The position numbers and the translations under genes were made by a program. Under the pieces are notes generated by a model that was given only the letters and a program-made list of their open reading frames with translations, did no database searches and was not told the origin of the DNA. Below, in pieces: positions 48,380 to 59,158 of a DNA stretch of 64,000 nucleotides. Origin of the DNA: Aurantiochytrium sp. KH105 (lineage: Eukaryota > Sar > Bigyra > Thraustochytrida > Thraustochytriidae). The stretch is from assembly GCA_003116975.1 (NCBI GenBank), contig BGKB01000042.1:1-64000 (forward strand), written 5' to 3'. Within the stretch, counting starts at the first letter, position 1, and each line of letters opens with the position of its first letter.

Positions 48380-48597
48380 ACTTCTCGTGGCGGATCCTCT
48401 CCGGGCGAGGCTAAGGCCACCCCTTCATACTCTCCGCGACAAACTCTGGTGGGCGTGTGCTTGGGCATGCGCGCGAGGCGAGCGGTGTCGTGAAGCGAGC
48501 TTGCGGTGGCTTTGGGCGCAGAGGCCGAGAAGAGGTTGATCCCTGTAATCAGCAGCAGCCGCACCAGCAGCGAGAGCGGAGCCGAGACGAAGCAAGC

Positions 48598-50089
48598 ATG
48601 AGGCTCATCAAGAAGAACGTGTCCGCCAAGGACGGCGAAGGCTCCGTCGTCCTATGCGCGGACGATGGAGAAGACATGTGGCATGTATATAACCTGATCT
48701 CGAACGGGGATCTGGTCAAGGCGACGACCTTCCGCAAGGTCGTCAAGGAGGGCACCACGGCGGTGTCTTCTCAGCGCGTACGGCTCACGCTGAGTATCCG
48801 CGTCGAGGGCGTCGACTTCGATCCTGAAGAGTGCTCCATCCGCCTCAGCGGAAGGAACCAGACCGAGACCCCGCACGTCAAGCTCAATGCCTACCACACC
48901 ATTGCACTCGAGCCGCACCGCAACTTCACCATTTACAAGACGCGATGGGACACCATCTTTCTCGAGAGGCTTGACACCGCTTGCAATCCTGTCAAGCAGG
49001 CACAGCTCGCTGCGATTGTGATGCAACCGGGCCTTGCTCACGTCTGCCTCATTACAGGTCACATGACTATTCTTCGCGCCAAGATCGAGCGCAATATTCC
49101 TAAAAAGCGAGCCGATGGCAAAATTCACCGCGAAAACGTGAACAAGTTTTTCGAAATGGTCTTGCAAGCCCTTTTGCGCGAGGTAGACTTTAGTATCGTC
49201 AAAAGCGTGGTGATTGCGAGCCCAGGCTATGTCAAGGATGACTTTTTCAAATATATGCAGGCAGAAGCGGTACGTTATTCGCGGGCCGATGGGGATCAGC
49301 AGCTTCTTGCTCGGCTCAGCCCAGCACCTTGTGGTGACTCGTACGCGTGGAGGTCCTCTTGTGACGATTATGACAACTAACACGTTCTTTGGGTACATGA
49401 CTTGGCGCTGTTTTACTATTCTCACACAGTCAAAGCGCCCAGATCTCAAACCCCTCTTACAGAACAAGGAGCGCTTTGTGCTTGCGCATGCCTCATCAGG
49501 TTACAAGCACGCGCTCGATCAGGTTCTGGCTGACCCAAAACTGCAATCCCAGCTCCTTGATTCGCAGGCGGCCAAAGAGGTCAAGGTTCTCAACAAGTTC
49601 TTCAAGATGCTCAATGACAATTCGGAAATGGCCTTTTACTCCTTTCCACACGTACGCGCCGCACTCGAAAAAGGAGCAATCGACTCGCTGCTCATCACAG
49701 ACTCACTCTTTCGATCTTCAAATATCAAACAACGTCGACAATACGTCGATCTTGTTGAAGCTGCGCGAGATGCTGGCGCCAAAGTGTACATGTTCTCTGC
49801 ACTCCATACTTCAGGAGAGCAGCTCACGCAGCTCTCGGGAGTTGCTGCGATACTCCGCTTTCCTCTGCCAGAACTTGATGACGTTGAGCTTGGTCTCGAC
49901 CCGGACGCTGCCGAAGAGTCGGAAGAAGATGACCCGTATGCAGGCATCGATGATGACGACGAGGACGATGAGGATGGTGGGCAAGAAATTTCGCTCAGCA
50001 ACGACGTTGCGGATCGGGCTGTTCAACCGGGAGCCACTCTTACCCACGAGGACGAAGACGCTCGCGAAGCGCTCAAAGACATGTTCTAG
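48598..50089 (+). CDS. PELO: Pelota/Dom34 ribosome rescue factor, two exons
   Basis: Exon 1 is 48598-49269 and exon 2 is 49430-50089, with a 160 bp GTACGT...ACACAG intron. The join is in phase (MQAEA-SKRPDLKPLL) and gives 443 residues. Pelota with HBS1 binds the empty A site of stalled ribosomes and triggers their splitting in no-go and non-stop decay. The N-terminal Sm-like domain (MRLIKKN, EDMWHVYNLISNGDLV), the central eRF1-like domain (AAIVMQPGLAHVCLIT, then IPKKRADGKIHRENVNKFFE) and the C-terminal domain (ASSGYKHAL, AIDSLLITDSLFRS, HTSGEQLTQLSGVAAILRFP) follow family order. The eRF1 GGQ motif is absent, as expected for Pelota. The C-terminal ~75 residues extend into an acidic tail (EESEEDD, DDDDEDDED) longer than the usual one. 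The start is the ATG giving the canonical MRLI end. Confidence 0.96.
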
Positions 50090-51514: not shown

Positions 51515-54500
51515 TTATTCGAAGACAGTGGATTCCTTCGTCGTGGCGACCTTTGTAGAGCCCACAACACCTGAACCTGTAGGACCATTGCCACGTGAAG
51601 CTTTCGAAGCCTTGGTAAGGACGGTGCCCCCCGCCCCTGAAGTCTCTGGTGCCCCAAAGACTGCAAAGTACATCTTGGGACAGAAGATGAGTGCAGTTGT
51701 GGAGAAATCGTTGAGAAAGATTGCAATGGCACGGATGAACATTGACGTCTCAGCGTCATCCGCAGTCAGAACAATGACAGGAAGTGCAAGCAAAAGAACT
51801 TGAAGGTTTCCGAGCATGGCAAGACTCAAATATTTCGTCTCTGCGAATACACCATTCATCTTGCGACACTTGTAGCTCAGGTACGCTCCATAGAAGAGAA
51901 GGGACAAATGGTAGACAGCGACGAGAGTGATAAACATCCGCGAGCTAGGGCTCTCGCAGGCGCCGTTCAAGGGATTCAACGTTGGGCGGACAAACTTGAG
52001 GGGATCTGTCACTGACCAAATGATAAGAATGAGCAGCTCCACGCAGAGGAGACCCGCCAGGGAAACGAGGGTTCTCCGCAAGGACACGCCTCGTGACTTG
52101 CGCATCTTTGCCGCATTCTTGAAGACCTTTGCCACACGCTGAAGCTTGACAATCATGCTGCAGTATGTGATGGCGAAGCCCAGCCCGTAAAACCAAGGTT
52201 GAGCCATGCAAGCCCAGTTCGCTGCATCGTTGTACCCATCCCCTGCAGCCGGGCCTTCGCTATCATCAATAGCCATGACGAAGATCGTGGTGGAAGACAC
52301 GATTGTGCCGACACCCACCAGAACAAGCAAGGCAGGCTGCGAGGCCTTGACGATGATGTGCTTGCGCATGAGACCCGTCCACACGATGCAAAAAAATGCA
52401 AAAACACAGTTCATGCTTGCAAGCACACGAGCAATTGATTTGACACTGCCGATGCCCTCCTTTTCTTCGTCCACTGCACAGCTCATGACCATGTCGTGCG
52501 TGAAGGTTGAATCGCATGTCTCGTTGCTCATGTAAGAATACATGGGCGTGAAGTAAAATCCACACTCGCATCTTGCAGGAACTCCATCAATGCTGTTTGC
52601 CTCTGTGCAATACGCATTTGCTGGACAGCCATCTGCACAGAGCGCAGGCGCTGGTGCGTCGACGTACATGATGAGCACGTAATACGTTTCTGCATTTCCA
52701 TCATCGACAGAAACCTGTCGCGCAGCCTGAACGACGACAATTTTCTCCATGCTGGTACCAAAGGCATCATTCCATGAAACCTTGAAGGCACCACCTCCCA
52801 CCTTAAAGGCGTTGAGACGTAGGTCAGCCTCAAAACTATTTCCCAGCGAAGAAACTGCTTCCACCTGCTGCACGAACTCCGTGTACAAGTGAGGGTCCGA
52901 TACGTTCCACGCTTCGTGCACAGCAGCATCGCCATGGGCCACAAGATTAAAGTCAGAGTCGAGGACAATAGGGAAAAAGTCGGGCGCTACCAAAACGCTA
53001 CCAGCGTTGATCTCTCCAAGAATGGAAGTCATCTCAGCATCCGAGCTTGCCAGCTGAATGCTTGTGACGATCTCGCCAATGAGCGCCCGCGCGTTGGTCT
53101 CGGAACACGGCGCCGAATACGCAGCGGAGCAGGCTTCCACCACTGGCGCGCGTTCACGGCGATAGCCGCCCACCAGGTAGTACTCCTTGTTGTCCTTGCT
53201 GATCTTGTTGACAAAGGCGACAAAGTTGCTGAAGCCCTCTTCACCAGGAAGTTCGACCCAGCCACCGCCTGCGTTGGCCTTTGCTTTCAGGTTTTCGTGT
53301 GAAGCGTCCACCTCACCAATGCGGCGTGCCGCAAAGGCGGCAGCCACACCTCCACCAACACGACTTGCGTCGACAGTGTCTGCCATGACGGTCTTGCTGG
53401 CGTAGTCGACAATGAGGACGCCGAAGCCGCCGGGCATGACAAACTCCTCCGATGTAGCATTGTTGATATCAACAAAGAGGTTATTGGCTTCGATCCGAGT
53501 GAGAACGTCGACTTCAGCATGCGCGGAAAGCGTGAGGACATTTCCAATGGCGCACGGCTCGCTATACTCGACAGAGCAGGTGCTGCACAAAGAGCTCGCT
53601 GCGGCTGGATCGCGAATGTGATTGAACCCTGCGCCAAAGTAGTAGTCATTCCCAAAGAGCTTAACTCCCGTCACGTAGCTGACTTTAACCTGGGCAGCTG
53701 CCGTTGAGGACACCGTCCAGTCGTACTTGGCCCATCCTCCGCCCCCAAGAGCTGCATCACGGAACTGCTCGTGCAGAACGGTGCCGTTCTGCTTGGTGAG
53801 GTCTGGAACAAAGAGAAGAGATATCTCATAGAGCGTCTGGCGGATCCAATCGGAACGAGTGTGAGCAAAGGCTCCACTTGTGAAGTCGTCTCCGAAACCG
53901 AACGCAAAAATGTACCAGCTTCCGTCACGATAGGTGTTGTCTCTCGGGAAAGTGATCTCATTCCAGACCTCCCGCAGCTCAGCGGGCGTCTCGGCGGCCA
54001 TGGCGCTGTACAGTACAGCGCCCACAAGCGACCGTACATTTTGAATGTTGCAGCGCCTGTTGACCGAGGTCGGACAGGCGTCGATGTCCATGCGGGGGAG
54101 AAGGCGATGAGCTAGACCCGCAAGAACGACGTACGAGTGTCCAAAGGCATCAACACCCTTCGCGTAGCCAAGAAAAGAAATTGGTTCGTCCGGATAGTCT
54201 TCAGAGACAAAGTTGAACTTGAACCAGCCGTCACTTTCTGCCGCTGACGCAGCGAGGATTTCGTCGGAAAGCCCATCCTGAACGGTGGAGACGCCGAGTG
54301 CCGCAGCCATTTCTTCGAGCGTCAGATTGCTGAACCCCGTTGCGTCGCGGCCATTGGCGACACAGCGCATCGTGTCCGCGTCGAAAATGAAAGGCGCGAA
54401 ACCGAAGCCATCGTCGACGTTGAAAGACTTGGTGTTGACAAGAGACGCGAACGCGCTAATGTTGGTTGCTGCATTTGCAAGAGCCTCGCTCGTGTCTTCG

Positions 54501-54706
54501 ACCATGCGATACACGTTATTGAAGGCGCAGGGAGTCGAATAACTAGCAGAGCATGCTGGAAAAGCAGGTGCGAGACGCTCATCGTAAAAGCGAACAGGTC
54601 GCTGCGCATCCGCGCTGCCTGTGGAATACGCGAGCAAGACGAGGAGTGCTGCAACGACTTGGCCTGTCGCACCGCGCCGATGAAGCCTCATGCGGGACGA
54701 GCTCAT
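51515..54706 (-). CDS. Class C GPCR with four Cache-like domains and an EGF-like module (copy 1)
   Basis: 1063 residues from ATG 54706; an ATG at 54691 is an alternative. A signal peptide (~1-35, hydrophobic VVAALLVLLAYS, ending SADAQ) leads to four tandem ~150-residue ectodomain units beginning at Cys ~52, 211, 377 and 526. Each opens with C-x7-C (CSASYSTPC, CPTSVNRRC, CSVEYSEPC, CSAAYSAPC). Units 1-3 have the Cache-like ending GGGW..YDW/GWFKF followed by strands (VKVSYVTGV..FGNDYYFGAGF). A Cys-rich EGF-like module (~685-725, CADGCPANAYC, CECGFYF) precedes seven membrane helices (~757-1013) of the class C type, with ACMAQPWFYGLGFAITYCSM and KLQRVAKVF as in GABA-B/metabotropic receptors. The cytoplasmic tail is short (~45 residues, Ser/Thr-rich). 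It should sense an extracellular small molecule; ligand and G-protein coupling are unknown. Confidence 0.9.
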   Translation of the reverse strand: MSSSRMRLHRRGATGQVVAALLVLLAYSTGSADAQRPVRFYDERLAPAFPACSASYSTPCAFNNVYRMVEDTSEALANAATNISAFASLVNTKSFNVDDGFGFAPFIFDADTMRCVANGRDATGFSNLTLEEMAAALGVSTVQDGLSDEILAASAAESDGWFKFNFVSEDYPDEPISFLGYAKGVDAFGHSYVVLAGLAHRLLPRMDIDACPTSVNRRCNIQNVRSLVGAVLYSAMAAETPAELREVWNEITFPRDNTYRDGSWYIFAFGFGDDFTSGAFAHTRSDWIRQTLYEISLLFVPDLTKQNGTVLHEQFRDAALGGGGWAKYDWTVSSTAAAQVKVSYVTGVKLFGNDYYFGAGFNHIRDPAAASSLCSTCSVEYSEPCAIGNVLTLSAHAEVDVLTRIEANNLFVDINNATSEEFVMPGGFGVLIVDYASKTVMADTVDASRVGGGVAAAFAARRIGEVDASHENLKAKANAGGGWVELPGEEGFSNFVAFVNKISKDNKEYYLVGGYRRERAPVVEACSAAYSAPCSETNARALIGEIVTSIQLASSDAEMTSILGEINAGSVLVAPDFFPIVLDSDFNLVAHGDAAVHEAWNVSDPHLYTEFVQQVEAVSSLGNSFEADLRLNAFKVGGGAFKVSWNDAFGTSMEKIVVVQAARQVSVDDGNAETYYVLIMYVDAPAPALCADGCPANAYCTEANSIDGVPARCECGFYFTPMYSYMSNETCDSTFTHDMVMSCAVDEEKEGIGSVKSIARVLASMNCVFAFFCIVWTGLMRKHIIVKASQPALLVLVGVGTIVSSTTIFVMAIDDSEGPAAGDGYNDAANWACMAQPWFYGLGFAITYCSMIVKLQRVAKVFKNAAKMRKSRGVSLRRTLVSLAGLLCVELLILIIWSVTDPLKFVRPTLNPLNGACESPSSRMFITLVAVYHLSLLFYGAYLSYKCRKMNGVFAETKYLSLAMLGNLQVLLLALPVIVLTADDAETSMFIRAIAIFLNDFSTTALIFCPKMYFAVFGAPETSGAGGTVLTKASKASRGNGPTGSGVVGSTKVATTKESTVFE

Positions 54707-56026
54707 TTGTTGCGTGAACGAACGGTGATTCAATTTTTGCCTTGCCTCGACGCGGAACAACGCCGTCGAAGCAACAAGCTTTGCCGCTTTGATTCCCAAA
54801 CTAAGTCTGACTTGCAATAAACCTGTCTCGGCCTCACAATTTATCGATTCTTTCACGAACGAAATGTTCGTGAAACGGATTTCGGTCCGAAAAAGTTTTC
54901 CTTTTCCCTCTTCACTGGCCAGCTGGACGAACTCACAGTTTTTGGCACTCTCTCGGCGCTACGTTGTTGTACCGTATGATGTGTAGGTGCGTGCCTCCGT
55001 CTCTCGGTGTCTCTCTGATTTCTCTTGATCTGCGTCCAACGACCCTCTTTTGGCTCAGGTATGGCAGGGGACACCGCTCGCGGGCGAGGCTTGCACCGTG
55101 TTTTCGCGGTTCACTGCGGGCACAGCATCTTGTTAGCAATGAGATCATCACTTCCTGGCCAAAGTTTCCGTTCGACCGTGAGCGCCACAGCCATTTTCCT
55201 GGAACGAGGCGTATCTACGCCCTCCTGCTAGCCACTCAGCTGGACTGAAGAACACGGAAAATCGGCCCGGGCCCGGAGCGCCAATTTGCCCCCGATTCCA
55301 AGAAAGGATCGCCTCCACGGAGCCACGGCCCAAGCGACCCACTCGGTGCATCCTTGGTTCCGTTGAACAGCCTGTCAGCGGCCTGAGCCTTACAGCCAGA
55401 CTCACTGTCAGACTGCCAGCCAGCATTCTCCCGTGTGCAGGCTGCAAGAAGATTTTTTGGAGGGTGGGTTGGGGGGGGGGGGGCGAGGAGAGCCTGCCAG
55501 TGCCGGTCTGCCTGACTCTGAATTTTCGCCATCTCCATGGCCACTGCGCGCGCCAGAATTGCACCATTGATGTGGCTGACTGTGAGACGAGAAACGGAGC
55601 GTCGGCCGATTGCCGGGTGCATTTGCATATAAAATGCAAAAAATGGAAGAATTCAATCGGAAACGGAACCTTTCCTTCTACCCAAAACGAAACGGTTGCA
55701 AGTCCAAGGCCTCCAAGCCTAAAGTATACACCACCCGCCCAAGCAGTGAGACAGGACTCGGAGGCCGCCACTGGCCGGTAAAATCATCGTGGAGTTCGCT
55801 GCAGCTGGCTGCCTTTGAGAAAGACTGACAGGTGGTCGGGATCGATCGAGACAACGGATTCAAAAACCAGGCAAAACCAGGCAATAGCAAATCAGAGAGG
55901 AGAGCGAGCTTGCAGTCAACATTGATTAATTTGAGTAAGGAGTAAGCTCGAGCTGCACTCGAGGGACGCAGAGCCTACTTCGCGTTAGGCATCGCTGCCG
56001 AGGAATTATAAAAAGGTGAAGAAGTT
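54707..56026. other. Intergenic between the two tandem GPCR genes
   Basis: 1.3 kb between same-strand paralogues, holding the promoter of copy 1 and the 3' end of copy 2. It contains a 12-G run (about 55471-55484), AT-rich stretches and a CAGGCAAAACCAGGCAA near-repeat (55867-55884). No gene or remnant of a third receptor is seen. Confidence 0.5.
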
Positions 56027-59000
56027 TTAACTTGGCGCAACAGCCGTAGTAACTGAGCCGTTCACAGAGGGAGTCGTTTGATTGATCGACTTGACCGTGG
56101 CGACGTTCGACTTGTTGTTCGACTTGCTGTGAAGCGCTGAAGTTCCTGTACCGGAGGAGTCGGGCGGGCCAAACATGGAAAAGTACATTTTCGGGCCGAA
56201 GATAAGCAGTGTCGTTGACAAATCATTCAGAAAAACGGCGATACTGCGAATGAAAATTGAGGTACCCGCATCGTCTGCCGTTAAGATGATGACTGGAAGC
56301 GCCAGCAACAGAACCTGAAGGTTACCAATCATGGCCAAGCTCAAGTACTTTGTCTCTGCAAAGACGCCGTTCACCTTGCGGCACTGGTAGCTCAAGTTTG
56401 CGCCATAAAAGAGGAGACTGAGATGGTAGGCCGCCAAGAGTCCGACGAAAGTTGACGCCAAAGGGCTCTTACACGAACCATTGAGAGGGTCCTCGTCAGG
56501 TCGCTCAAACTTGAGGGGGTCAATCACAGTCCAAAGCATGAGCAAGAGAACCTCCACCGAAAGGAGGCCGACCAAGAACATCAAGGTCACGCGGAGCGAG
56601 ACGCCCTTGACCTTTTTCAGCGATGCCGCGCTCTTGAACACCTTGGCGACTCGGCGAAGCTTTACAATCATACTGCAGTACGTGAGTGCGAATCCGAGGC
56701 CATAAAACCATGGCTGCGCCATGCAGGCAATGTTTGCCCGTGCGTTGGCCCCGCTGCCGGCAGGGCGACCGACGCTATCATCGATGGTCATCATGAAAAT
56801 TGTGCTCGACGACACCATGGTACCAGCGCCCACAAGGACAAGTAGCATTGGTTGCGAGACTCGAACGATGGTTGTCTTGCGCATGGCGATCGTCCACGTG
56901 ATGCAGATCAAGGCAACGCCAAGGTTCAGCGAGCCGAGGGCCTGGGCAATACTCTTCACGCTAAGGATCGACATTTTCTCCTCATCTTCAATGCATGTCA
57001 TTACGAGGGTGTTGGTGAAAGTGTTCGCGCACGCGCTTTCCTCCGTGCTGTTTTCATACTGCACAGTATAGTAAAAGCCGCACTCGCAGCGAAGAGGGAG
57101 TCCCGTGCCATGATCGACGCAATATGCGTTTTCCGGGCATCCCGCGGAGCATAAGGTCGGGGCTGGTTCGTTAGAGAACATGGTGAGCACGTAGTACGTC
57201 GATTCGGATCCGCTGGTGGTAGGGCGTTTGGCAGCCTGTACAAAGATCACCTTGCTGGTGATTGAGCCATACGCATCGTTCCACGCCACCTCAAAGGCCT
57301 CGCCTCCGACCTCGAAAGCCTTTGCACGAAGTGTCGCCTCGAAGTCGTTGCCGAGCGACGACACGGCTTCATGTTGCTGAATGTATGTGACAAAGGTCTC
57401 TCCTTTCACAGCGGTTTCCCAGTCGTCACGCCCTGCTGCGTCTTCGAGCGCAAGAATGGCAAAGTTTTCGTCCAGAACGATGGCATTAAAGTCTGGACCT
57501 ACATTATAGGTCTGGTCGAGAGGACTGTTGATAGCGGTCAAAAGTGTCTCGAGATCCTGGGCAGAAGATGCGAGCTGGATTTCAGAGACGAGGTGGCCGA
57601 TGAGAGCCTTTGCATTTACCTCTGAGCACTCGTGCGCGTAGTCCGCTGAGCAGTCTTCAACGATTGGTGCGCGATCCCGTCTGTAGCCGCTGAGCAAGTA
57701 GTATGCGCGTTCGTACTTGTTCACTTTGGTGACATAGCCTGCAAAGTCAGCAGCCATCCCATCACCCGGCAGAGCTATCCAGCCGCCACCTTGATTGGCG
57801 AGTGCCACGAGCGCGGCGTGCGATGTATCTGCGCTCGCGATCTCTCGGGCCGCAAAGGCTGCGGTGACGTCCTCTCCCCACGTTGTGTCGTCGAGGCTAT
57901 CTGCCATGACGGTTCGATTTTCCACATCGACGACCAAGACTCCAAAGTCGAGGTCCATGCGATAAGGGTCAGAGGCAAGCTCATCAAAACCTGTTTCTGT
58001 AACGGTGAGCAGCTCGACTTCGGCATGCGCGCTGAGCGATAAGGCGTTTCCAATAGCGCACGGCTCACTGTAGTTTGCGGAACATGTAGCACATAGCGCA
58101 GATGGTGTTGCTGGGTCCCGGGTATGCATAAATCCAGCGCCAAGATAGTACTGCTGGCCAAAGAGCTCAACACCGACAACAAAGCTCACCTTGACCTGGG
58201 TAGGGACCGACAAAAACCAATCATAACGGGCCCATCCTCCACCTCGTTGAGCAGCGTCGGAAAAGGCAACCTCGAGAATTGTTCCATTAAAGAAATCATA
58301 CTCCTCGAAAAGCTCATATGTTGTTAAACCAATCCAATCGGGGTTTGAATGCGCCACGAATATGTTTGTCCCGGATGGACCGCCCATTGAGCTCGAGAAT
58401 ACGTACCAACTTCCATCTACAAAAGTAGTGTCTTCTGGATAAGTCATCTCGGTCCAAAGAGCACGCAAATCAGCAGGCGTTCTAACTGAGAGCGCGTGCG
58501 AAAGTGCGCTGCCAACAAGGGACCGCACATTAGTAATACTGCAGCGCCGATTGACGTTGACAGGGCAAGCATCGACGTCCATACGCGGCAAGCTTCTCTG
58601 GGCCAAGCTCGCCATCACAACAAATGTCTCGCCAGCATCGTTCGTGGCCTCGCGGACGTACATGAGATGCCGGATGGGATCAGGAAAAACATCGTCCTCC
58701 GAGACAAAAGTGAACTTGAGCCAACCTGACCCTTGAGAACTCGTCACGGCCTGACGAATCTCGTCGGAAATCTCTTCTTGTTGAACGAGCGTAGAGGAGG
58801 CCATTGCAATCTTATCCAGCGTAAGCCCGTTGAAATTTGTATCTCGGCCGTTTGCGAGGCAGGCCATAGATGTTTCGTTGAAGATATAGGGAGTAAATCC
58901 AAAGTTCACGTTGTGTTCGCCTGCATCTACGTTCGCCAGAATCGACGCTGTGTTGGACGTCACTTCGATTCGCGCGACAAGGCTCTCTACGAGACGGTAC

Positions 59001-59158
59001 ACGTTGTTGAATGCGCATGGCGTGGCGTAGCTCGCAGAACATGCTGGAAAGATGGGCACGATTTGGTTGTCAAGCAGGTGAATCTCATCTTGTGCGCTCA
59101 CGCATGATGCTAGACAGGCTGCAAGTGCCGCCAGCACCAAGGCTGCTCTTTGCGCCAT
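56027..59158 (-). CDS. Class C GPCR with four Cache-like domains and an EGF-like module (copy 2)
   Basis: 1043 residues from the first ATG, with a clean signal peptide (MAQRAALVLAALAACLASCV, then SAQ). It has the same architecture as copy 1: four ectodomain units each opening C-x7-C (CSASYATPC at ~40, CPVNVNRRC, CSANYSEPC, CSADYAHEC), an EGF-like module (CSAGCPENAYC, CECGFYYT) and a class C seven-helix region (IACMAQPWFYGLGFALTYCS, KLRRVAKVFKSAASLKK). Long stretches are near-identical to copy 1, especially in the helices and in units 1 and 3 (CAIGN..LSAHAEV). The tail (~50 residues) is rich in Ser, Thr and Asn and shares no obvious motif with copy 1. Copy 1 lies downstream on the same strand, so the pair arose by tandem duplication. 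Confidence 0.9.
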   Translation of the reverse strand: MAQRAALVLAALAACLASCVSAQDEIHLLDNQIVPIFPACSASYATPCAFNNVYRLVESLVARIEVTSNTASILANVDAGEHNVNFGFTPYIFNETSMACLANGRDTNFNGLTLDKIAMASSTLVQQEEISDEIRQAVTSSQGSGWLKFTFVSEDDVFPDPIRHLMYVREATNDAGETFVVMASLAQRSLPRMDVDACPVNVNRRCSITNVRSLVGSALSHALSVRTPADLRALWTEMTYPEDTTFVDGSWYVFSSSMGGPSGTNIFVAHSNPDWIGLTTYELFEEYDFFNGTILEVAFSDAAQRGGGWARYDWFLSVPTQVKVSFVVGVELFGQQYYLGAGFMHTRDPATPSALCATCSANYSEPCAIGNALSLSAHAEVELLTVTETGFDELASDPYRMDLDFGVLVVDVENRTVMADSLDDTTWGEDVTAAFAAREIASADTSHAALVALANQGGGWIALPGDGMAADFAGYVTKVNKYERAYYLLSGYRRDRAPIVEDCSADYAHECSEVNAKALIGHLVSEIQLASSAQDLETLLTAINSPLDQTYNVGPDFNAIVLDENFAILALEDAAGRDDWETAVKGETFVTYIQQHEAVSSLGNDFEATLRAKAFEVGGEAFEVAWNDAYGSITSKVIFVQAAKRPTTSGSESTYYVLTMFSNEPAPTLCSAGCPENAYCVDHGTGLPLRCECGFYYTVQYENSTEESACANTFTNTLVMTCIEDEEKMSILSVKSIAQALGSLNLGVALICITWTIAMRKTTIVRVSQPMLLVLVGAGTMVSSSTIFMMTIDDSVGRPAGSGANARANIACMAQPWFYGLGFALTYCSMIVKLRRVAKVFKSAASLKKVKGVSLRVTLMFLVGLLSVEVLLLMLWTVIDPLKFERPDEDPLNGSCKSPLASTFVGLLAAYHLSLLFYGANLSYQCRKVNGVFAETKYLSLAMIGNLQVLLLALPVIILTADDAGTSIFIRSIAVFLNDLSTTLLIFGPKMYFSMFGPPDSSGTGTSALHSKSNNKSNVATVKSINQTTPSVNGSVTTAVAPS

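Follow-up and report, generated by a model that had tools for sequence, protein, structure and literature searches.

Receptor genes and their genomic context

The window analysed here, a stretch of 64,000 nucleotides from Aurantiochytrium sp. KH105 (assembly GCA_003116975.1, contig BGKB01000042.1, hereafter C42, positions 1 to 64,000, forward strand), contains two neighbouring genes predicted to encode class C G protein-coupled receptors (GPCRs). Both are intact open reading frames (ORFs) on the minus strand, open without introns, and encode proteins of 1063 residues (gene 1, counted from Met51) and 1043 residues (gene 2) that share 55% identity over 1012 aligned positions. The order of parts is the same in both proteins: a signal-like segment at the N-terminus, then the four homologous units, an EGF-like stalk with six cysteines, a class C seven-transmembrane (7TM) region and a tail of approximately 50 residues. 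The features are as follows, all on the minus strand.

51515..54706, minus: receptor gene 1 (P0001 from Met51), ATG at 54706 or 54691
54605..54691, minus: gene 1 signal peptide-like N-terminus ending ..SADA|Q, read from the sequence, with a hydrophobic stretch over residues 12-30 as counted from Met51
54086..54562, minus: gene 1 unit 1, read as Cache-type from its homology with the remaining units
53588..54085, minus: gene 1 unit 2, sCache_2/dCache_2-like
53141..53587, minus: gene 1 unit 3, read as Cache-type by homology
52643..53140, minus: gene 1 unit 4, read as Cache-type; in paralogue 4 this unit matches sCache_2
52472..52642, minus: gene 1 six-cysteine EGF-like stalk, by cysteine spacing; no Pfam match
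51674..52426, minus: gene 1 class C 7TM region (7tm_3), Pfam profile
51518..51673, minus: gene 1 short C-terminal tail, from the sequence
56027..59158, minus: receptor gene 2 (P0002), intact ORF
59093..59158, minus: gene 2 signal peptide-like N-terminus ending ..SVSA|Q, read from the sequence and a hydropathy window
58577..59050, minus: gene 2 unit 1, by unit profile and internal homology
58094..58576, minus: gene 2 unit 2, read as Cache-type
57662..58093, minus: gene 2 unit 3, by unit profile and internal homology
57155..57661, minus: gene 2 unit 4, by unit profile and internal homology
56987..57154, minus: gene 2 six-cysteine EGF-like stalk, by cysteine spacing; Pfam EGF_MSP1_1 at E 0.22
56189..56938, minus: gene 2 class C 7TM region (7tm_3), Pfam profile

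The ORF of gene 1 as listed extends to 54856, where the ORF lister accepted a GTG start. In the allele on the second haplotype, the reading frame opens exactly at the equivalent of Met51, with two TAA codons upstream, and the start of gene 1 is therefore placed at the ATG at 54706 or 54691. Signal peptides were assigned by eye and with a hydropathy window, and the hydrophobic N-termini found in this way are in keeping with the signal peptides proposed for both genes in the initial annotation.

That annotation had described a tandem pair. Both genes are real, but they belong to a tandem of three, the third gene (L010, paralogue 3) lying on C42 at about 65.7-68.8 kb, just beyond the window, and a fourth family member (paralogue 4) was found on contigs C92 and C101. 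The triple is present in identical order on contig C66, the second haplotype. Many receptor genes are paired in the assembly of which C42 is a part (76 Mb in 367 contigs), and these pairs are read as two haplotypes. Both alleles of all four family genes are intact, with ratios of non-synonymous to synonymous substitution (dN/dS) between alleles of 0.10-0.30 for the ectodomain and 0.04-0.10 for the 7TM region; the genes are under purifying selection. Intact allele pairs of four genes and dN/dS values well below 1 rule out an assembly or pseudogene artefact. Identity between paralogues is 41-70% for the units and 64-75% for the 7TM region, every unit being less conserved than the 7TM region in five of the six paralogue pairs and about equally conserved between gene 1 and paralogue 3. 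This pattern, together with the dN/dS values, agrees with a divergence of receptor specificity under constraint.

Searching the genome with the 7tm_3 model gave 69 matches, from which 40 receptor loci were fetched; Pfam scans cover 26 of these, including both genes of the window. When the genome was searched with the whole protein, 41 of 47 first-look candidates were scored, of which eight (four genes on two haplotypes) cover the ectodomain and 33 match over the 7TM region alone. Within the reach of that search, the four-unit ectodomain is private to this receptor family.

Layout and internal homology of the ectodomain

The units are 144-175 residues long and each opens with a C-x7-C motif, followed by a helix-like N..V..L stretch and then by core blocks of the form F..vD / A / GGGW / YV / YY..G, not all of which occur in every unit. 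Four units per protein were recovered both with the C-x7-C motif and with a profile of the eight window units. Applied to the 40 receptor loci, this profile found exactly four domains in each of the eight full-length ORFs; two further matches were partial and fell in incomplete ORFs at the edges of L011 and L012, overlapping the neighbouring family gene. Comparison of unit types with one another by profile hidden Markov models (HMM-HMM) yielded scores that beat all 60 cysteine-preserving shuffles in each of the six pairs. After removal of the first 30 columns, which hold the cysteine motif, five of the six pairs still beat the decoys, while unit 3 against unit 4 failed (2 of 60 decoys as high). 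The four tandem units first noticed in the window are thus confirmed by motif, by profile and by homology between the units.

The unit types are divergent; measured against gene 1 unit 2, identity is approximately 17-24%. In a tree of all 16 units each type forms one group across the four genes (unit 1 with support of 89/99; the others starred), which indicates that the array of four predates the gene duplications. An arrangement of two dCache pairs (units 1 and 2 with units 3 and 4) was considered and set aside, since the unit tree lends it no support and weakly favours units 1 and 4 against units 2 and 3 (64/72).

Relationship of the units to Cache domains

All four units are read as Cache-type, two of the types (2 and 4) by direct evidence and two (1 and 3) by their homology to these. 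Through unit 2 both alleles of paralogue 3 exceed the Pfam cut-off of sCache_2 (26.1 and 26.7 against 25 bits), and when it was scanned alone it matched dCache_2 at 5.3e-5 and sCache_2 at 8.4e-5. In paralogue 4 it is unit 4 that hits sCache_2 (22.3 and 23.5 bits, below the 25-bit cut-off), while the dCache_2 match falls on unit 2. Gene 1 and its allele reach about 12-13 bits, also below the cut-off. When all six frames of the genome were searched at E ≤ 10, both sCache_2 matches and all six dCache_2 matches fell inside the family (in paralogue 3, paralogue 4 and gene 1, with no match in gene 2). The dCache_1 type (PF02743, Cache_1) was discarded as a candidate, there being no match to it in the genome at E ≤ 1.

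In HMM-HMM comparison with 34 bacterial sCache_2 sequences, unit 2 aligned over 97 columns at E 1.7e-9 and a probability of 96%, with none of 100 decoys (99 column-shuffled and one reversed) as good, and the alignment takes in the N-terminal half. None of 150 decoys was as good as unit 2 against a narrower Cache profile, and a profile of all 16 units matched bacterial sCache_2 at 84% with 0 of 100 decoys as good. Searching 7.3 Gb of plasmid sequence with unit 2 of paralogue 3 (tblastn) gave weak matches (E 0.5-5) in 143 records; among the best 25 of these, 21 are annotated cache-domain proteins and four are without annotation, and the protein of one such match scores on sCache_2 at 2.1e-34.

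Several results weigh against a Cache assignment. The window proteins themselves stay under the Cache cut-offs (gene 1 with E 0.06 and 0.1; no sCache_2 or dCache_2 match for gene 2 or its allele in the Pfam scan), and only three of the 16 units, scanned singly, each match dCache_2 or sCache_2. Units 1 and 3 did not rise beyond the decoys against Cache (28 and 5 of 150; 4 and 2 of 100), and unit 4 beat the decoys on the narrow Cache profile (0 of 150) but not on the broader one (54 of 100 as good). Searching the PDB with profiles of the units returned no Cache structure and only unrelated chains (best E 0.088 and 0.005).

These results leave some room for units whose fold is not the long helix and five-stranded PAS-like sheet of Cache and whose likeness to it is confined to a short motif at GGGW..Y.W. 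Such a fold would agree with the absence of Cache chains from the PDB searches, with the failure of units 1 and 3 to match by themselves, and with the fact that direct matches are for the most part confined to the final 50-70 positions of these Cache models, a part which we take to correspond to the later strands of the sensor core. It is nevertheless improbable, given that the HMM-HMM alignment of unit 2 reaches well beyond this part, that different units (2 and 4) of two paralogues match the same family, and that no other gene in the genome matches sCache_2 or dCache_2 at E ≤ 10. The Cache-like character proposed in the initial annotation accordingly holds directly for unit 2, and for unit 4 in one paralogue; units 1 and 3 owe it only to their homology with these. 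In the available text of a comparative study, dCache_2 is taken as a duplicated sCache_2, and eukaryotic Cache domains are described as apparently acquired horizontally; the study lists 2QHK, 3UB6 and 4K08 under sCache_2 (PMC4822843).

The EGF-like stalk

Between unit 4 and the 7TM region the pattern C-x3/5-C-x5-C-x10/12-C-x-C-x15-18-C, with a seventh cysteine, is kept in all four paralogues. In its strict form it was found at 8 of the 40 receptor loci, exactly those with a Cache-type ectodomain; a looser EGF pattern additionally fits both alleles (L026 and L027) of one further receptor, whose cysteine-rich stalk is of a different kind. The identification applies the cysteine-spacing rule of EGF modules. 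Counting against it, the Pfam matches of the stalks are sub-threshold (EB at 0.05; EGF_MSP1_1 at 0.22 and 1.4) and absent for gene 1, and the label consequently rests on cysteine spacing. The module expected from the initial annotation was therefore recovered as a conserved six-cysteine spacing but not as a profile match above threshold, and it seems fair to call the stalk EGF-like rather than EGF.

The 7TM region and its affinities

The assignment of the C-terminal region to class C was upheld. Nearly the whole 7tm_3 model (PF00003) is matched, at E 2.2e-38 (132.8 bits) for gene 1 and E 1.8e-34 (120.0 bits) for gene 2 against a cut-off of 33.5 bits. Features of class C activation described in the available text of a 2013 diatom study comprise a basic pair in transmembrane helix 3 (TM3), an acidic residue in TM6, a PK motif in TM7 and loop cysteines (PMC3727952). 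In all four paralogues TM3 carries K-L-[QR]-R, TM6 carries E-[TA]-K and TM7 carries PK-x-Y, and the cysteine of loop 2 is present; the cysteine on the TM3 side was identified by eye.

Pairwise scores against solved structures placed GABA-B receptors first. Among the best 60 of 75 matches for gene 1, GABA-B scored 62.0 bits, mGluR7 48 and GPR179 36, while gene 2 scored 71.4 bits with GABA-B and then 39 with mGluRs, with no GPR158 or GPR179 chain among all 57 solved-structure matches at E ≤ 0.001. Two receptors of the same genome with ANF-type ectodomains also scored best with GABA-B (85 and 70 bits) and reached 23-29 bits on GPR158/179. Gene 1 is thus somewhat nearer to GPR179 than are these receptors, and gene 2 is not.

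A tree was built from the 7TM regions of 26 of the 40 loci, all from this genome, the other 14 having been omitted as presumed second copies. The Cache receptors form one clade (100/99), nested in a larger group of receptors with ANF, PBP_like_2 or unassigned ectodomains (97/97). At least L036 and L032 among the omitted loci are more likely separate paralogues, and the retained L038 and L039 look like alleles; the ectodomain labels of L023, L039, L042 and L046 were borrowed from near-identical paralogues. Lineage-specific exchange of ectodomains would give nesting of this kind.

The nearest architecture among animals is that of the glycine receptor mGlyR (GPR158) and of GPR179, which in the available text of a 2025 survey combine a Cache-type domain, an EGF-like module and a class C 7TM region in that order (PMC12716839). 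The receptors described here differ in having four Cache-type units rather than one, a 7TM region nearest to GABA-B, a tail of approximately 50 residues and a module that is EGF-like by spacing only. Had a receptor with Cache, EGF-like stalk and class C 7TM existed in early eukaryotes, the two could be related by common descent, the Cache domain having been multiplied to four in the present lineage. The shared order of parts would then be explained, as would the restriction of the strict stalk pattern to the Cache clade and the excess of the GPR179 score of gene 1 over those of the ANF-type receptors. The same protein, however, scores higher with GABA-B and also with mGluR7, gene 2 prefers GABA-B without any GPR158/179 match, and the unit profiles retrieved no GPR158/179 chain from the PDB. 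The position of the Cache clade inside the genome's own class C radiation makes kinship with animal mGlyR unlikely, and common descent is given very little credence. Plain orthology to GPR158/179 is likewise unsupported, the 7TM scores being best with GABA-B. Of the two origins entertained in the initial annotation, an early relative of GPR158/179 or an independent build, the evidence favours the second, and the resemblance in layout to mGlyR is most likely convergent.

Comparison with other known systems

A class C 7TM region with a Cache-type ectodomain outside animals was in print by 2012, in TP_7830, a glutamate-family receptor of Thalassiosira pseudonana (PMC3251606, available text). That protein was reported with Cache_1 (PF02743), the model without a match in the present genome, whereas the present family carries four units resembling sCache_2 and dCache_2. 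The 2013 diatom study shows a 'Cache 1' box in the legend of a GPCR figure and, in the portion of it available, describes no cysteine-rich domain upstream of the transmembrane domain in its diatom set (PMC3727952).

The alpha2delta subunit of calcium channels likewise has four tandem extracellular Cache domains (PMC10761187, PMC6527056). According to the available text of these sources, it differs in possessing a VWA domain, in having its domains intertwined in sequence and in being a membrane-anchored channel subunit without a 7TM region. The likeness is one of layout, by description, and an ectodomain of four Cache domains is as such already known.

Bacterial sCache_2/dCache_2 sensors, among them histidine kinases and chemoreceptors, are similar in profile to unit 2 and to unit 4 of paralogue 4 and are also extracytoplasmic; in the present receptors, by contrast, the output is a 7TM GPCR, the units stand four in tandem and each opens with C-x7-C. 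GABA-B receptors provide the top 7TM match among solved structures (for gene 1, among the best 60 of 75 matches), but the window proteins differ from them in the EGF-like stalk and in an ectodomain without an ANF/Venus-flytrap match in the Pfam scan.

Proposed function

Taken together, the data are probably best explained by a family of class C chemoreceptors in which the Venus-flytrap module has been replaced by four Cache-type units on an EGF-like stalk, joined independently to a GABA-B-like 7TM region. Their most likely role, predicted from sequence, is that of small-molecule chemoreceptors signalling through G proteins. A small extracellular molecule would bind to at least one Cache unit, and the resulting movement would be relayed by a stiff, disulphide-locked stalk to the 7TM bundle of a receptor that is probably dimeric, like other class C receptors. 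The bundle would then activate one of the many G-alpha proteins of the cell. The transduction machinery is present, since 27 G-alpha matches lie over the cut-off in this genome, suggesting approximately 14 genes after halving for haplotypes. As to origin, the four-unit ectodomain would have arisen before duplication into four receptor genes and would have been coupled to its 7TM region independently of animal mGlyR/GPR179. The fold of the units, the ligand, dimerisation, G protein coupling and convergence are the parts of this explanation that we infer. Titles of papers on bacterial chemoreceptors in which sCache is mentioned name formic acid and glycerol 3-phosphate among the ligands (PMC8698456, PMC12395807).

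How many of the units would bind a ligand may be considered from two sides. The receptors may be multi-site sensors, as the initial annotation suggested. Each unit could be a working and distinct orthosteric site, so that up to four signals were integrated on a single 7TM region. Divergence of the unit types ahead of the gene duplications, and retention of each type in all four genes, are what a separate job for every unit would lead one to expect. Four working sites are nonetheless judged unlikely, the more so since the available text on alpha2delta, another protein with four such domains, places ligand binding at Cache1 alone (PMC10761187).

Alternatively, the units might be mostly non-sensory, forming a structural or adhesive rod or a dimer partner, or might include only a single binding unit. 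Heterodimers of class C receptors in which one partner binds no ligand are established, and three tandem genes could yield heterodimers. The divergence of the unit types from one another is in keeping with this, as is alpha2delta itself, in which the available text places a leucine site at Cache1 and assigns others of the four to contacts (PMC10761187). Opposed to it are the retention of all four unit types in four genes under purifying selection and the position of the similarity to Cache, presumably in the later strands of the sensor core. A mostly non-sensory ectodomain is accordingly given a minor share of probability, and binding of a small molecule by at least one Cache unit is preferred.

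Other genes of the genome

Class C GPCRs with other ectodomains were encountered during the survey. L017, L028 and L030 (contigs C51, C31 and C140) have ectodomains matching PBP_like_2 at E 4e-16 to 3e-24, which we take to be a phosphate-binding-type family, and are possible nutrient-sensing GPCRs. The long ectodomain of L043 (C90; 1432 residues) is mostly without an above-cut-off Pfam match, and the long ectodomains of L026 and L040 are wholly so. L041 (C34) carries an OpuAC (glycine betaine-type) ectodomain at E 1.8e-16 and has near-copies in L042 and L046; OpuAC in receptors of the glutamate family has been reported before (PMC3251606, available text).

One G-alpha copy contains a single in-frame TGA on both contigs on which it occurs (C314:13060-14091 and C245:49750-50781); a pseudogene, an intron and recoding are alternative explanations. 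Adjacent to the receptor genes, a plus-strand gene at 48457-50089 of the window carries eRF1 domains 1-3 and is presumably Pelota-like. It is split over two overlapping frames, suggesting an intron near 49300, and domain 2 in the first frame matches only positions 2-100 of the 133 of its model. Pieces of a PfaA-like polyunsaturated fatty acid synthase were found at C72:311448-314582 and on C155, C290 and C61. The PfaA-like frame scores 930 bits over model positions 6-1035, under the cut-off of 1010 bits, with a model that weakly matches 10 of 14 control genomes. This frame, the GC content, the intronless genes and the numerous class C GPCRs and G-alphas are consistent with a thraustochytrid.

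Significance

The available text of the 2025 survey reports no Cache domain in any non-metazoan receptor screened and calls the Cache/EGF layout a stem-metazoan innovation; the lineages it names are opisthokont groups, amoebozoans, viridiplantae and ciliates, with stramenopiles not in that list (PMC12716839). Enrichment of GPCR and G protein domains has been reported in thraustochytrids (PMC6050695, available text). No description of a GPCR bearing four Cache units came up in a limited literature search. As far as seen, two features are new, the joining of an array of four such units to a GPCR and the presence outside animals of the EGF-like stalk, while the fusion of Cache to class C was already in print.

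Together with the diatom report, these genes show that Cache-bearing class C receptors occur outside animals. They suggest that Cache domain and EGF-like stalk were assembled more than once, which would suggest that a stiff disulphide stalk is a useful means of coupling a Cache sensor to a class C 7TM region. The family also offers a compact, intronless set of receptors for asking whether one GPCR carries several small-molecule sites, and with class C 7TM regions joined to ANF, PBP_like_2 and OpuAC as well, this genome is a good place for studying the exchange of sensors.

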